A stretch of 64,000 nt of DNA from assembly GCF_000177215.2 (NCBI RefSeq), contig NZ_CM001368.1:2679001-2743000 (forward strand), written 5' to 3'. The notes beneath the pieces are model-generated. The model searched no databases, was not told the origin of the DNA, and worked only from the letters and a program-made list of their open reading frames with translations. Both the position numbers and the translations under genes were made by a program. Origin of the DNA: Solidesulfovibrio carbinoliphilus subsp. oakridgensis. GTDB lineage: Bacteria > Desulfobacterota > Desulfovibrionia > Desulfovibrionales > Desulfovibrionaceae. How positions within the stretch are numbered: the first letter of the stretch is position 1; each line of letters begins with the position of its first letter. Of this stretch, positions 5,750 to 12,876 are shown piece by piece.

Positions 5750-7396
5750 ATGTCTCGGCTCGTGCCAGGGCAAATACCTTGGATGTCGGAGGAGCTTTCA
5801 AAACTATTGCAGACTTCCGAAGGAACCAACGTCGAGTTCAAGGAAGCCAAGAACTCCTTCGATAAGAAAGAATTATTTAGGTATTGTGTCGCATTGGCGA
5901 ACGAAGGTGGGGGAGAGTTGGTGCTTGGCGTAACGGACGCCATACCCCGACAGGTCGTTGGGACCAGGGCCTTCGGCGACCTCGACGATACCCGCAATGC
6001 CATATACCAAGCCACACGCCTGAACGTCGAGATTTCCGAAAACACAAGTACAGGCGGACGTACCCTCCTCTTTTCGATTCCTGGCCGTCCATTAGGCACT
6101 CCCGTGGAGTACGGCGGGCAATACCTCATGCGCCGGGGCAGCAGTCTTGTTTCCATGACCATTGACCGGCTCCAGGCCATTCTGGAGGAAACGGTTCCCG
6201 ATTTTTCCGCCGGAATTTGTCCGGGTGCAACCCTGGCCGACTTGTCGACGGAAGCAATCGAGAAGTTCCGTCATCTCTGGGTGCGGCAAGCGAACAGGCC
6301 GCATCTTCTGGATTTGCCCGCCCATCAACTCCTGGAAGATGCCGAGCTTTTAGTGGACGGCGGCGTGACCAGGGCGGCCCTCATCCTTTTGGGGACGGCC
6401 GAAAGCCTTGGCCGCTATGTGGCGGATGCCGAAATCATCTTCGAGTACCGACACGCGGAGGGAGGTATCGACCCTACGGTCCGGGAATCCTTCCGGGAAG
6501 GGCTCTTCCTGTACATTGACCGCCTGTGGGAGTTGGTGAACCTGCGCAATGAAGTGTATCCTTACCAGATGGGATTGGTCCGGCGGGACATTCCCTCCTT
6601 TCGGGAGGAGGTCATCAGGGAAGCCCTGCTCAACGGCGTTTGCCACCGGGATTACCGCTACCGGGAATCCATTTTCATCCGCCAATTTCCCGGATTGATT
6701 GAAGTTGAAAGCCCAGGCGGCCTGCTGCCGGGTGTTACCATCGAAAACATGCTCTTCAAAAGGGCCTGGCGGAACCGTCGCATCGCTGAGGCCCTGGAAA
6801 AGGCGGACTTGATTGAACGCTCCGGCCAGGGCGTGGACCGTATGTGGCGGATGGCCCTCCTGGACGGCAAGATGCCACCCGACTACTCCCGGACCGACGA
6901 CCACCATGTGTACGTCCGCCTTCATGGGACCATCCATGATCCGGTTCTTCTTCGTTTCTTAGAGGAGATTGGAGAGGAGCGTTATCGGACATTTGGCGCC
7001 TCGGATTTGGCCGTGCTTCATTTCGTGAGCCAGGACAAGGAAGTTCCCAGGGATTTTCGAGGACGGGTAAAACATCTTGTCGAGCAGGGAATATTGGAAA
7101 GGATTGGGCGCAAGCTGATTTTTGCCAGACGGTACTATGAAATGAAAGGTCAGGCCGGCGTCCACACGCGCAAGCGCGGCCTGAGCAAGGAGGCCAATTT
7201 GCAGTTCGTGCTCAATCATCTCCGATCCTGCGGAGCGAAGGGGTGTGTCCTGTCTGACTTGCAACCCGTGCTCCCCCACGTCACCCCACGGATGCTCTCC
7301 GGTTATCTGGAGGAATTGAAACGACGCGGCCAAGTCCGGGTGATAGGCAGGACCAAGGGTGCCCGATGGTTCTTCCCCGCGGCCGATGAGCGGTGA
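5750..7396 (+). CDS. AlbA_2/Schlafen-domain ATP-binding regulator-like protein
   Basis: The product is 548 residues. The N-terminal AlbA_2 (Schlafen-like) domain is recognisable from VEFKEAKNSFDKKELFRY and ALANEGGGELVLGVTD. The middle carries the HATPase_c_4-type segment (REALLNGVCHRDY, IEVESPGGLLPG, then RNRRIAEAL), and the C-terminus carries winged-helix-like segments. Relatives are annotated as ATP-dependent transcriptional regulators and some occur in defence loci; neither role is proven here. The frame opens at a TTG at 5702, but GGGAG sits at good distance before the ATG at 5750. Its base composition and codon choice are clearly less GC-rich than both neighbours, suggesting horizontal gain. 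Confidence 0.8.
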   Translation: MSRLVPGQIPWMSEELSKLLQTSEGTNVEFKEAKNSFDKKELFRYCVALANEGGGELVLGVTDAIPRQVVGTRAFGDLDDTRNAIYQATRLNVEISENTSTGGRTLLFSIPGRPLGTPVEYGGQYLMRRGSSLVSMTIDRLQAILEETVPDFSAGICPGATLADLSTEAIEKFRHLWVRQANRPHLLDLPAHQLLEDAELLVDGGVTRAALILLGTAESLGRYVADAEIIFEYRHAEGGIDPTVRESFREGLFLYIDRLWELVNLRNEVYPYQMGLVRRDIPSFREEVIREALLNGVCHRDYRYRESIFIRQFPGLIEVESPGGLLPGVTIENMLFKRAWRNRRIAEALEKADLIERSGQGVDRMWRMALLDGKMPPDYSRTDDHHVYVRLHGTIHDPVLLRFLEEIGEERYRTFGASDLAVLHFVSQDKEVPRDFRGRVKHLVEQGILERIGRKLIFARRYYEMKGQAGVHTRKRGLSKEANLQFVLNHLRSCGAKGCVLSDLQPVLPHVTPRMLSGYLEELKRRGQVRVIGRTKGARWFFPAADER

Positions 7397-9867: not shown

Positions 9868-10001
9868 GGCGGCCTTTCGTCCGGGGCGGGCCGAGCCGGA
9901 AGGACCGGGCCGCCCCGGCCTTGTAACCTGCCGCCCACCCGCCCCGACCAACCGCGTAACGGACGGCCAAGGCCGTTTAGTTCACGCGGGAGGTCATCCC
10001 A

Positions 10002-10496
10002 ATGAAAAAGTTGCTCTATGGTTTGTTGACGCTGGTGATCCTCATCGGCTCGGCCTATGCCGTGGCCGCCGGCCCGGGTCCTGGCGGCCCCGGCGGCCCG
10101 GGCGGGCCGTTGATCGGCAGGCTGCTGTCGCTTAAGCTGACCGAGGCCCAGAAACACGACGTGGCCGTGCTTCTCAAGAACAATCGCCAAGCCTTCCAGT
10201 CGGCCATGGAGGCCACGCGCGAGGCCTTCGGCTCCATGCGCGACGTCATGCGGAACGATCCGGGCAACGAGCAGCTCGTGCGCCAGGCCAGCCGCAAGGT
10301 CGCGGCCGCCGGCGAAGAGCTGGCCGTGCTCCGGGGCAAGGTGGAAGCGCAGGCCCTGGCCATGCTCACCTCCGAGCAGCGCAAGCAGTGGCAGGAAGCC
10401 GAAGCCGGCATGGGCCCCAGAGCCAAGGAGCGTTTCGATGCAGGCCGCGAGTTGGTCGATACGTGGATTGACACCCACGCCGGCCAGGACAGCTAG
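10002..10496 (+). CDS. Periplasmic Spy/CpxP/ZraP-like LTxxQ protein
   Basis: The product is 164 residues. A signal peptide (MKKLLYGLLTLVILIGSAYAVAA) leads into a glycine/proline-rich linker (GPGGPGGPGGP) and an all-helical domain. That domain has two LTxxQ motifs (LTEAQ near residue 45, LTSEQ near 126), the signature of the CpxP/Spy/ZraP periplasmic superfamily. These proteins act as chaperones or metal-responsive accessory factors in envelope stress. It is the first gene of a tight run with an ECF sigma factor (14-nt gap), an anti-sigma candidate and a second LTxxQ protein. The Shine-Dalgarno is GGGAGGT. There is no cysteine or histidine cluster, so metal binding is not obvious. Confidence 0.8.
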   Translation: MKKLLYGLLTLVILIGSAYAVAAGPGPGGPGGPGGPLIGRLLSLKLTEAQKHDVAVLLKNNRQAFQSAMEATREAFGSMRDVMRNDPGNEQLVRQASRKVAAAGEELAVLRGKVEAQALAMLTSEQRKQWQEAEAGMGPRAKERFDAGRELVDTWIDTHAGQDS

Positions 10497-10509
10497 ACGC
10501 CGGGACGTT

Positions 10510-11100
10510 ATGGCCGAAGCCGTGGTGGACATGGAGGACGCCCTGGTCCTTGCCAAGGTCCGGGAGGGCGACGTGGACGCCTATGCGAGGCTCATGACCA
10601 AGTACCAGGGGCGGGTGTCCGGCATCGTGTCCGGGCACGCGCCCCGGGACCGGGTGGCCGAGCTGACCCACGAGGCCTTTGTCCGGGCCTACCGGTCCCT
10701 GCCCGGCTACCGGGGGGACAGCCCCTTCGGCCACTGGCTGGCCAAGGTGGCGGTCAGGACCTGCCACGACTTCTGGCGGGCCGAGTACCGCCGGCGCGAG
10801 CGGCCCGAAAGCGAACTTTCAGACGAGTGCCGGGCCTTCGCCGAGGAGGCCGCGGCCCTCGAGACCAGCGAAGCGGCCGAAGAAACGGCCTCGCGGCGGG
10901 AGGCCAGGGAACTTTTGGCCTGGGCCATGGACCGGCTCTCGCCCACGGACCGGATGGTGGTGACGCTCACCCACCTCGAGGAGCGCTCCGTGGCCGAAGC
11001 CGCGGAAATGCTCGGCATAAGCGTCCCCAACGTCAAGGTGCGGGCCTTTCGGGCCAGAAAGAAACTTCGGGAAATCTTGGGCGGCGTCTTTGGCGCGTAA
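10510..11100 (+). CDS. ECF-family RNA polymerase sigma factor
   Basis: The product is 196 residues. Region 2 is visible as DAYARLMTKYQGRVSGIV followed by ELTHEAFVRAYRSLPGYRGDSPFGHWLAKVAVR. Region 4 is LSPTDRMVVTLTHLEERSVAEAAEMLGISVPNVKVRAFRARKKLREIL, containing the helix-turn-helix. This is the two-domain layout of group 4 sigma factors, which direct polymerase to stress promoters when their anti-sigma factor releases them. The frame is open upstream to 10438 inside the previous gene; I chose the ATG at 10510, just after that gene's stop. It lies upstream of a one-TM protein that probably holds it at the membrane. Confidence 0.93.
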   Translation: MAEAVVDMEDALVLAKVREGDVDAYARLMTKYQGRVSGIVSGHAPRDRVAELTHEAFVRAYRSLPGYRGDSPFGHWLAKVAVRTCHDFWRAEYRRRERPESELSDECRAFAEEAAALETSEAAEETASRREARELLAWAMDRLSPTDRMVVTLTHLEERSVAEAAEMLGISVPNVKVRAFRARKKLREILGGVFGA

Positions 11101-11110
11101 GGAGGAATCC

Positions 11111-11416
11111 ATGGACGGAGAAAACACACGGCGCATGGACCGCCTGGAAGCGGTGCTGCGAGCGGCCCACGCCGGACGGGACATCCCGGCCCCGGACCAG
11201 GCGATGGTGGCCTCGGTGTTGGCCGCGATCAAGGCCGCGCCCCCGGCCGAGCCCGCCAACGGCATCCTGTGGCGCATGGCCGCTGGCGCGGGCTTTCTGG
11301 CCGCGGCCATGGTCCTTTTCGCCCTGGTCTTCGGCTCGGGCTTCGAAGAGGAGATCGGGCGCGCCCTCTTTTACGATCCGAACGGCCAGGTCCTGGTCTC
11401 CATGCTCGGGGTGTAG
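11111..11416 (+). CDS. One-TM protein, probable anti-sigma factor (CnrY-like arrangement)
   Basis: The product is 101 residues: a charged N-terminal cytosolic part (about 1-52), one membrane helix (about 54-77, GILWRMAAGAGFLAAAMVLFALVF) and a very short periplasmic tail. It starts 10 nt after the ECF sigma stop with an ideal GGAGGAATCC leader, so the two are co-translated or nearly so. Size, topology and position match short anti-sigma factors such as CnrY, whose cytosolic segment sequesters the sigma factor. I see no zinc-binding HxxxCxxC motif, so it is not of the ZAS type. Function is inferred from context. Confidence 0.65.
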   Translation: MDGENTRRMDRLEAVLRAAHAGRDIPAPDQAMVASVLAAIKAAPPAEPANGILWRMAAGAGFLAAAMVLFALVFGSGFEEEIGRALFYDPNGQVLVSMLGV

Positions 11417-11425
11417 GGTGCGGCA

Positions 11426-12034
11426 ATGAACCCCACGGTAACCAAGATCATGGCCGGACTGGTCCTTTTCGCCTCGGGCACGGTGATGGGCTTTTTCGGG
11501 GCCCGGTTTCTGGCCGAACGGGGCCGGCTGGCCCTGCTCCACGGCGACCCCCGGCAATTCTCGGAGATGGTCGTGCGCCGCCTGTCCGACGACCTGGACC
11601 TGACCAAGGCCCAGCGGGAAAAGCTGCGGCCCATCATCCGCAAGACCTCCGAACGGATGATCGAGATCCGCCGGGAGCAGGAACCCAAGGTCCGCGAGGC
11701 CATCGAAAACAGCATCACCGAGACCAAGGCCATCCTGACCCCCGAGCAGCGGGAGAAGTTCACGGCCCTCATGGAACGGCTCCAGGAGCGGCGCAGGGCC
11801 CTGGAACGCTTCGGCCCGCCGCCCCCGCCGCCCGGGTTCGGCGGCTTTCCGCCGCCCCCGCCCGGCATGGCGGGCGGGCCGCCCCCGCCCGGATTCGAGG
11901 GATATCCGCCCCTGCCGCCGGAATACGGCCGGATGCCGCCGCCGGCCCCCGGGTCCCGGCCGCCCCAGGCCTCCCCGGCCCCCGACGCCGAGGCTCCCGA
12001 CGCGGCGAAAACGCCCGGAGAAACCCGGCAATAA
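11426..12034 (+). CDS. Membrane-anchored periplasmic LTxxQ protein with proline-rich tail (CnrX/Metal_resist-like)
   Basis: The product is 202 residues. An N-terminal anchor (about 7-28, KIMAGLVLFASGTVMGFFGA) is followed by a four-helix-type region with two LTxxQ motifs (LTKAQ near 59, LTPEQ near 108). A long proline/glycine-rich tail (about 130-200, repeated PPPPPGFGGFPP) is compositionally unlike the rest. The fold class is that of CnrX, ZraP and CpxP. In CnrYXH systems the anchored sensor pulls on the anti-sigma factor; the same layout here suggests this is the sensor. Metal ligands typical of CnrX (several His) are not evident, so the stimulus may differ. It starts 9 nt after the anti-sigma stop. 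Confidence 0.7.
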   Translation: MNPTVTKIMAGLVLFASGTVMGFFGARFLAERGRLALLHGDPRQFSEMVVRRLSDDLDLTKAQREKLRPIIRKTSERMIEIRREQEPKVREAIENSITETKAILTPEQREKFTALMERLQERRRALERFGPPPPPPGFGGFPPPPPGMAGGPPPPGFEGYPPLPPEYGRMPPPAPGSRPPQASPAPDAEAPDAAKTPGETRQ

Positions 12035-12168
12035 TCGGTTCCTCGTTCCCTTTTGTCCCGCGATCTGGCAATACTGACGCTGACCCCGGGCGGGCCGGAA
12101 ACCTCCGGCCCGCCCCAATCCCAACCACGCCGCCCCGCCCGGGGCGCACCGTGCCAAGGAGGAGCGTC

Positions 12169-12876
12169 ATGCCAGCGCCACGCGCCACAGCTTTTTCCCG
12201 CCGCGATATGCTTCGCCTGACCGCCACCGCCGGACTCGTGTTCCTGGCCGGCGGCATGATCCTGCCTGGAAACGCCCAGGCCGAAACCTTTGCCATGCCC
12301 CCCCTGCCCTACCCGGAAAACGCCCTCGAACCGGTCATCTCGGCCCGCACCGTGAGCTTCCACTACGGCAAGCACGAGAAGGCCTATTTCGACAACGCCA
12401 ACAAGCTGGTGGCCGACACGCCGCTGGCCGGGCAGCCCCTGGAAAAGGTCTTCCTGGAAGCGGGCAAGGACCCGAAGATGGTCGGGCTTTTCAACAACAC
12501 CGCCCAGGCCTGGAACCACGTCTTCTACTGGAACGGCCTCAAAGCCGGCGGCCCCGCCCCCTCGGGCAAGCTGGCCAAGGCCATCGACGCCTCCTTCGGA
12601 AGCCTCGACGGCTGCAAAAAAGCCCTGAGCGAAGCCGCCGCCACCCAGTTCGGCAGCGGCTGGGCCTGGCTCGTGGCCGGTCCGGACGGCAAGCTCAAGG
12701 TCGTCAAGACCGGCAACGCCGGCAATCCCCTGCAGGAAGGCCTCAAACCCCTGTGGACCCTCGACGTCTGGGAACACGCCTACTATCTGGACTACCAGAA
12801 CCGGCGCCCGGAATATATCCAGGCCGTGCTCGACAAGCTCGTGAACTGGGATTTCGTGGCCAAGAACTTGGGGTAG
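12169..12876 (+). CDS. sodB: Tat-exported iron superoxide dismutase
   Basis: The product is 235 residues. It converts superoxide to oxygen and hydrogen peroxide. Metal ligands are in place: His65 (SFHYGKH), His117 (AWNHVFYW), Asp199 and His203 (DVWEHAYYLDYQ). Gln113 and FGSGWAWL fit the iron type. The N-terminus has SRRDMLRL followed by a hydrophobic stretch and NAQA, a twin-arginine signal, so the enzyme should act in the periplasm. The start at 12169 has AAGGAGG; the reading frame itself continues far upstream without meaning. It follows the ECF/LTxxQ genes by 134 bp and may belong to their stress response. A dispersed repeat follows the stop. Confidence 0.93.
   Translation: MPAPRATAFSRRDMLRLTATAGLVFLAGGMILPGNAQAETFAMPPLPYPENALEPVISARTVSFHYGKHEKAYFDNANKLVADTPLAGQPLEKVFLEAGKDPKMVGLFNNTAQAWNHVFYWNGLKAGGPAPSGKLAKAIDASFGSLDGCKKALSEAAATQFGSGWAWLVAGPDGKLKVVKTGNAGNPLQEGLKPLWTLDVWEHAYYLDYQNRRPEYIQAVLDKLVNWDFVAKNLG

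Follow-up and report, generated by a model that had tools for sequence, protein, structure and literature searches.

Regulatory systems that combine an extracytoplasmic function (ECF) sigma factor, a short protein with one transmembrane (TM) segment and a periplasmic protein are of a known kind, represented by CnrYXH and by SigAb-AabA-AabB (PMC12153292). Here we describe a locus with this parts list and logic in the sulfate reducer Solidesulfovibrio carbinoliphilus subsp. oakridgensis (contig NZ_CM001368.1, positions 2,679,001 to 2,743,000; genome of 4.22 Mb in 3 contigs). The locus comprises four genes, termed A, B, C and D, and lies in a window of 64,000 nucleotides, the whole stretch of DNA that was analysed; coordinates of its features are those of the window. 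We consider it likely that A-B-C-D is a self-contained, autoregulated envelope-stress sigma switch. Within the reach of our searches, what is new is how widely the family occurs, the promoter, the Bae-like target pair and, most notably, the tandem units of C in relatives. Promoter conservation, the link to mdtABC and the multiplication of the C module are evidence from beyond the window and had been missed by the initial annotation of this DNA.

CnrY-CnrX-CnrH of Cupriavidus metallidurans shares with the present locus an ECF sigma factor, a separate periplasmic sensor and an anti-sigma factor with two cytosolic helices (PMC4598750); CnrY, with 95 aa, has a layout like that of C. SigAb-AabA-AabB of Acinetobacter is similar in its three-gene operon, autoregulation and small direct regulon; AabA is a 107-aa one-TM anti-sigma factor with predicted CnrY-like binding, and AabB is a periplasmic protein with anti-sigma activity (PMC12153292). 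Compared by description only, this system differs in its response to copper and in its targets, relA and a small RNA (PMC12153292). An Azospirillum operon of rpoE8, a hypothetical gene and a periplasmic heavy metal sensor gene has, again by description, the same gene make-up, and was raised when RpoE6 was overexpressed (PMC12826043). Anti-sigma factors of the RseA type have a four-helix domain in which helix 1 contacts sigma4 and helix 4 contacts sigma2, and a coevolution review has the two CnrY helices acting as helices 1 and 4 (PMC7406223). In E. coli, BaeSR controls spy, mdtA and acrD (PMC3160322).

The promoter, the four genes and the module of C are arranged as follows.

9922..9951, plus strand: ECF-type promoter TGTAACC-N16-CGACCAA upstream of A (sequence exact and position unchanged in all 14 genomes of the genus)
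10002..10496, plus strand: gene A, secreted LTxxQ/Metal_resist (Spy/CpxP-like) protein, 164 aa (Pfam PF13801 above cut-off; present in 14 of 14 genomes)
10510..11100, plus strand: gene B, RpoE-like ECF sigma factor, 196 aa, start codon ATG at 10510 (Pfam and PDB matches)
11111..11416, plus strand: gene C, one-TM protein, proposed miniature anti-sigma factor, 101 aa (AlphaFold2 (AF2) helices; relatives lie between sigma and D genes elsewhere)
11132..11245, plus strand: module of C with two helices (about residues 8-45), one copy here and 2-3 in relatives (unit profile)
11426..12034, plus strand: gene D, membrane-anchored LTxxQ (Spy-like) protein with a Pro/Gly-rich tail, proposed sensor, 202 aa (Pfam, AF2, PDB profile)

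The gaps between the genes are 13 nt (A-B), 10 nt (B-C) and 9 nt (C-D). A superoxide dismutase (SOD) gene follows D after 134 nt, and this gap places it outside the tight run A-B-C-D. The five genes named in the initial annotation are all present, with coordinates and gaps corrected here. A scores 42.4 bits against the Pfam family Metal_resist (cut-off 29.2) and 24.1 bits against LTXXQ, just under the cut-off of 24.3 (25.1 in the genome search); its signal peptide was judged by eye. B exceeds the cut-offs of Sigma70_r4_2, Sigma70_r4 and Sigma70_r2 in Pfam and is a member of the ECF sigma factors by NCBIfam (sigma70-ECF superfamily, 100.7 bits against a cut-off of 42.9). Its best PDB match is E. 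coli sigma-E (RpoE, 1or7; 1.4e-24), and CnrH matches at 1.6e-11. A described ECF group may already cover B. D belongs to the LTXXQ/Spy family (29.9 bits, cut-off 24.3), and C has no match to a Pfam family.

Of the genus's 13 other genomes, 12 have the order aldolase-A-B-C-D-SOD on one stretch, and in G007 it is divided between two contig ends. Conserved gene order in relatives had been set beforehand as a test that could refute the initial annotation, and the order is kept in 13 of the 14 genomes, the 14th being the one divided by contig ends. Because it is kept across the other genomes of the genus, the arrangement is not due to chance. Beyond the genus, a D match (E 0.001) was found in 12 of 85 relatives, all 12 with a B match at E ≤1e-15 on the same contig. 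When the named collection was searched with the B alignment, D lay downstream in 24 of the best 80 loci listed, including 21 of the 22 best sigma matches among them; by their record titles the 24 include Pseudodesulfovibrio, Nitrospira, Nitrospirae, Krumholzibacteriia, Verrucomicrobia and Lentisphaerae, and a C-type protein was present in 21 of them, with none obtained in one. A D search across 395 genomes of the phylum gave 56 matches at 1e-12. Leaving aside the window's own locus, 25 of this D-only search's 29 best loci show the order sigma-C-D; in the other four, the scripted D frame overran C (L202, L203), D was not downstream (L193), or no sigma gene lay within the cut locus (L212). The sigma-C-D layout is present in other phyla too. 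A-like frames upstream of the sigma gene occur in the genus and at other loci such as L047, L048, L074, L078, L083 and L085. At the two remaining loci of the 24 (L096, L109), which have sigma and D, a cysteine-containing protein, zinc-finger-like or anti-sigma-like by eye, replaces C, which suggests an exchange of anti-sigma types with the sensor kept.

The promoter before A is conserved as strictly as the gene order. The exact motif TGTAACC-N16-CGACCAA occurs once per genome in all 14 genomes; identity of the boxes was the search criterion, and the spacer between them has diverged to 45% pairwise identity. With one mismatch allowed, nine more sites appear across the 14 genomes, one of which precedes the gene of a paralogous sigma factor in G004. 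A search of the own genome with up to two mismatches, giving 10 sites including the true one against 8 in the control, was uninformative. Among 37 loci outside the genus, 20 carry a relaxed motif (TGTAAC-N15-19-CGNY) no more than 900 nt upstream of the sigma gene, where 0.33 would be expected and at most 2 loci were reached in 100 resamplings by first-order shuffles. The 37 loci include several related Nitrospira and two loci at which D was not found (L072, L092); two duplicates (L073, L075) and a locus with too little upstream sequence (L081) were left out. At L078, L083 and L085, where A is present upstream, site and sigma match are 860-870 nt apart, which fits an operon with A as its first gene.

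A second candidate target is an efflux operon of the resistance-nodulation-division (RND) class. Across the 14 genomes, TGTAAC-N17-CGAC has 83 sites against 67 for a reversed control, and one of these sites recurs before the same gene, an mdtA orthologue, in 13 of the 14. In 12 genomes 84-124 nt separate the motif from the gene's extrapolated start; the largest distance, that of the own genome, rests on a protein match that starts at residue 33. For G007 the distance is 98 nt, measured to an mdtA match starting at residue 4. G006 has no close mdtA orthologue (35% identity at best, against 77% in G000 and 69% in G007) and no such site. In the own genome the adaptor belongs to the MdtA/MuxA family (400.5 bits, cut-off 391), and the permeases after it are MdtB/MuxB-like (1514.3, cut-off 1584) and MdtC-like (1360 for a cut frame, cut-off 1774). 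The Spy-like gene and mdtABC share a motif in 14 of 14 and 13 of 14 genomes, and B probably drives the mdtABC-type efflux operon in this genus, judging by where the motif stands. This would recall the Bae regulon, in which a Spy-like protein and an MdtABC-type pump are likewise found (PMC3160322), here proposed under one regulator; the likeness concerns what the regulons contain and not a shared descent. BaeSR is a two-component system, whereas the regulator here is an ECF sigma factor, its proposed sensor is a Spy-family protein itself, and the link is by motif only.

Six genomes of other genera were checked for the motif, and four contain a match. In G043 it lies 80 nt before an RND adaptor (TIGR01730 above cut-off), and in G372 the site before A was recovered again. 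Behind the sigma/D module of G039 (L065), after position 5859, there is a frame that by eye resembles a tripartite-efflux adaptor. In three genomes of genus g41 (L283, L284, L288) a secreted protein is encoded about 125 nt after a relaxed motif; the protein of L284, scanned against Pfam and NCBIfam, has no match. Of three further relaxed sites in the own genome, two (267336 and 3077493) fall, like the mdtA site, within frames from a mechanical listing, and the third (3750054) appears by eye to be in coding sequence.

Protein C has the predicted architecture of a small membrane-bound sigma inhibitor. In the AF2 model of C alone (mean pLDDT 80.2, pTM 0.31), helices 3-21 and 30-42 are cytosolic, residues 50-74 form the TM helix and a short periplasmic end follows. 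Class II (CnrY-like) anti-sigma factors wrap two helices round sigma2 and sigma4, and two cytosolic helices are predicted in C; the four-helix domain of the RseA type (class I) was not found in C, whose similarity is limited to RseA 37-72, which we take to be helices 3-4. A profile of C relatives, built from 46 sequences trimmed to the cytosolic part (without the duplicates L070 and L075, the long L061 and the extra units of six multi-unit proteins), matches RseA 37-72 with P 1.7e-4, and neither 200 shuffles nor 28 windows of neighbouring E. coli proteins gave an equal score. Against the cytosolic part of CnrY, 34 of 150 shuffles scored equally. The full-length comparison, in which 0 of 150 did, includes the TM helix in its alignment. 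The cytosolic part of C by itself thus gave no sign of homology to CnrY. Pfam and NCBIfam models give weak matches only for 16 C relatives; an 'anti-sigma factor' model appears in 3 of the 16 (best 0.00043), reaching 13-15 bits against a cut-off of 100 in two of them. A full-length match to C occurs once per genus genome. The C-type protein of L184 has a longer N-terminus with a short, coil-like run, in which residues of the Ile-Asp-Arg-Val type recur, before its single unit. On these sequence comparisons and the model, C may be a miniature anti-sigma factor of CnrY-like layout, perhaps a reduced RseA-like one. The locus resembles RpoE-RseA of E. coli in its RpoE-like B and in the match of the C module to RseA. 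It differs in that C has no counterpart of the RseA sequence ahead of residue 37 or of the long periplasmic domain, the run contains no RseB-like gene, and D is a Spy-family protein.

The AF2 model of D (mean pLDDT 76.2, pTM 0.43) has helices at 3-38 (a long anchor), 42-57, 61-103 and 106-129, followed by a low-confidence tail. The nearest structure in a PDB profile search is E. coli Spy (1.6e-5). CnrX was not among the matches up to E 10, and kinship with it is still conceivable. The initial annotation had held that D lacks a His-rich metal site and has a long proline-rich tail, and both points stand: among the nearly invariant residues of D in the genus there is one His (13 of 14), in the folded part, and Pro and Gly make up 55% of the 74 tail residues in the window's D. 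No conserved Cys was found in D or A of the genus. Metal sensing by D was rejected as the leading interpretation, as D has no conserved ligand set.

We then propose a model for the A-B-C-D switch. The two-helix cytosolic module of C would hold B at the inner membrane, and D, as an anchored Spy-family protein, would monitor the short periplasmic end of C. The signal that engages D would most likely be unfolded or damaged envelope protein or an envelope toxicant, and not a bound metal as in CnrX. Once D is engaged, C would release B, and freed B would read TGTAACC-N16-CGAC promoters, namely that of its own operon and, in the genus, that of the mdtABC-type RND efflux operon. A, a soluble relative of D, would be the periplasmic output and may also damp the signal, while C and D would return the switch to its off state. 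In one clade of the genus the module of C has been multiplied to two and three tandem copies. If this model is true, the layout of CnrYXH and SigAb would be a widespread switch not tied to metals, and a regulon of a Spy-like protein and an Mdt pump would resemble that of BaeSR under an unrelated kind of regulator.

Several observations weigh against this model. A second, more distant ECF sigma factor (E 1e-20 to 1e-23) is encoded in 13 of the 14 genomes, at L063 (G000:C1:1888136-1888657, minus strand) and 12 further loci of the genus, and upstream of it TGTAACC and, downstream of that box, CGCC are conserved in 13 of 13. With this promoter-like stretch of the same -35, the paralogue could be the reader of the mdtABC site. 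G006 has no paralogous sigma at E 1e-15, and the pump is also missing there. The relaxed motif alone says little, being barely enriched over the control; what favours it is solely its conserved placement. The mechanically listed open frame of the adaptor extends upstream across the motif in L256 (own genome), L264 and L265, so that the adaptor may start before it there. As to C, its match to RseA is weak (hhalign probability 49%), a PDB profile search returned no anti-sigma factor and nothing relevant, and six genomes contain, at other places, weak and incomplete matches to C that cover the TM part (best 2.1e-4). Fold searches with the models of C and D gave no relevant match; they decide nothing, since neither Spy, CnrX nor any anti-sigma factor was among the matches. 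A has His conserved in 14 of 14 genomes at two positions and in 13 of 14 at one, which leaves room for a metal role. Lastly, unit 2 of the two-unit C proteins is under looser selection (pN/pS 0.56, the ratio of non-synonymous to synonymous divergence).

The layout of sigma factor, short one-TM protein and anchored Spy-family protein, which the initial annotation had likened to CnrYXH, is indeed present in one gene run, whereas kinship with CnrYXH finds no support in the sequences: B is nearer to RpoE, the cytosolic part of C is weakly similar to RseA and not to CnrY, and D is nearest to Spy. The target of the Cnr system is an RND pump, and its sensor CnrX has several conserved His ligands. In a true relative of CnrYXH, D would bind a transition metal like CnrX and the sigma factor would drive metal resistance. 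Consistent with this are the shared topology, the likely RND pump target, the match of A to the Metal_resist model and the conserved His of A. However, genus D sequences do not have several conserved His ligands as CnrX does but one conserved His in the folded part and no conserved Cys, and both sigma factor and C are nearer to RpoE and RseA than to CnrH and CnrY. The pump also differs from a heavy-metal type: its adaptor is Mdt-type (400.5 bits, above the MdtA cut-off of 391; 96.1 against a cut-off of 319.3 for the CzcB model) and its permease scores 1514.3 for MdtB (cut-off 1584) and 391.4 for CusA/CzcA (cut-off 701.45). The locus further differs from Cnr in the extra secreted LTxxQ gene of the operon and in the tandem modules of relatives. 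We regard it as unlikely that the locus is a true, metal-sensing relative of CnrYXH.

To analyze the module of C across the genus, we used a unit profile built from seven one-unit proteins. The module is single in the own genome and six relatives, double in three genomes (L037, L039, L046; G008, G013, G006) and triple in four. Three of the triple ones are complete (L041-L043; G009, G012, G005); in G007 a unit starts at one contig end (L045) and two more units and the tail lie on another contig (L044), consistent with three. Unit domain E-values in the six complete multi-unit proteins range from 6.6e-15 to 1.8e-25, and the extra units were recovered independently by a whole-genome search with the wider C family. 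A wider unit profile, built from many of the 72 C-type proteins to which it was applied (duplicates L070, L075 and L191 among them), found more than one unit in just these six complete multi-unit proteins (two in 3, three in 3), one in 65 and none in 1, a truncated frame (L198). Outside the genus, among 59 C-type proteins including two duplicate records, 58 have one unit and none has more than one. Copy number follows the tree, with support of 83 for the one-unit clade, 100 for the multi-unit, 80 for the two-unit and 100 for the three-unit clade.

The duplications are not recent, since synonymous divergence (pS) between units within a protein (0.39-0.54) is at or above that of equivalent units between species (0.13-0.45). 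Within units pN/pS is 0.20-0.56, compared with 0.29 for the single unit (few sites, uncorrected; the one-unit protein L034, which has an insertion, was left out). By eye, the helix-2 core is retained in 15 of 15 units of the six complete multi-unit proteins. Together with the pN/pS values, this indicates that the units are maintained. Extra units would raise the sigma-holding capacity or avidity per membrane anchor. More specifically, it is a tentative possibility that a sigma-binding unit of about 38 residues is arrayed in tandem so that one anchor holds several sigma factors, with unit number tuning threshold and gain. A literature search, with few subscription papers within reach, found no tandem-repeat ECF anti-sigma factor and no such module in sulfate reducers. 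The tandem units would provide natural variants by unit number for probing the effect of anti-sigma stoichiometry on switching, and the multiplication in relatives suggests a natural means of tuning sigma switches.

Alternatively, the repeats could bind both B and the paralogous sigma factor, which lacks a C beside it, and so join two sensing branches. The paralogue occurs in 13 of the 14 genomes, 11 of its 13 loci have a D-like anchored LTxxQ protein alongside, and none of the 13 fetched stretches contains a C-family match; with one full-length C per genome and a shared -35 in the two promoters, the paralogue may share promoters, conceivably also C, with B. Unit number does not track the paralogue, however, which is present in all seven one-unit genomes and, at E 1e-15, absent from the two-unit G006, and the D-like protein may itself be the inhibitor. 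Such a joint role for the repeats is improbable.

The SOD gene and its leader stand beside the switch as follows.

12046..12076, plus strand: SOD upstream element TTCCC ... TCTGGCAATACTG, promoter-like and distinct from the sigma motif (TTCCC and TGGCA invariant in 14 of 14 genomes)
12088..12115, plus strand: leader hairpin of SOD (both partners vary at 4 of 9 predicted pairs among 14 sequences)
12169..12876, plus strand: Fe-type superoxide dismutase with a twin-arginine-like signal, 235 aa (Pfam, NCBIfam)

The protein exceeds the Pfam cut-offs for both Sod_Fe_N and Sod_Fe_C. Its best NCBIfam model is the Fe-SOD SodB, at 223.6 bits under a cut-off of 348, and the twin-arginine translocation (Tat) model scores 14.8 bits (cut-off 16.7). 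Of the Tat-exported Fe-SOD in the initial annotation, the SOD family therefore holds, and Fe type and export are likely rather than proven. SOD lies downstream of the module in all 14 genomes, on the same contig as D in each; outside the genus a SOD match is near the module in 1 of 20 loci (fetched stretches of 3.8-12.8 kb). A check of the D-SOD gap by eye found no TGTAAC/CGAC motif. SOD was rejected as a target of the sigma factor, having its own conserved upstream element and no sigma motif, and the linkage drawn in the initial annotation does not extend to a common regulon; on the sequence of its upstream region SOD is probably a conserved neighbour. An oxidant-sensing system of an anaerobe with exported SOD as its main output would fit the constant position of SOD in the genus and the activation of sodA by BaeSR in Salmonella (PMC3799227), but is very unlikely: SOD has its own upstream element without the motif and starts 134 nt after D, just one locus of the 20 outside the genus has a SOD match nearby, and neither D nor A of the genus has a conserved Cys. 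The leader hairpin of SOD may serve to stabilise the mRNA at its 5' end or, though it has no T run, to terminate transcription.

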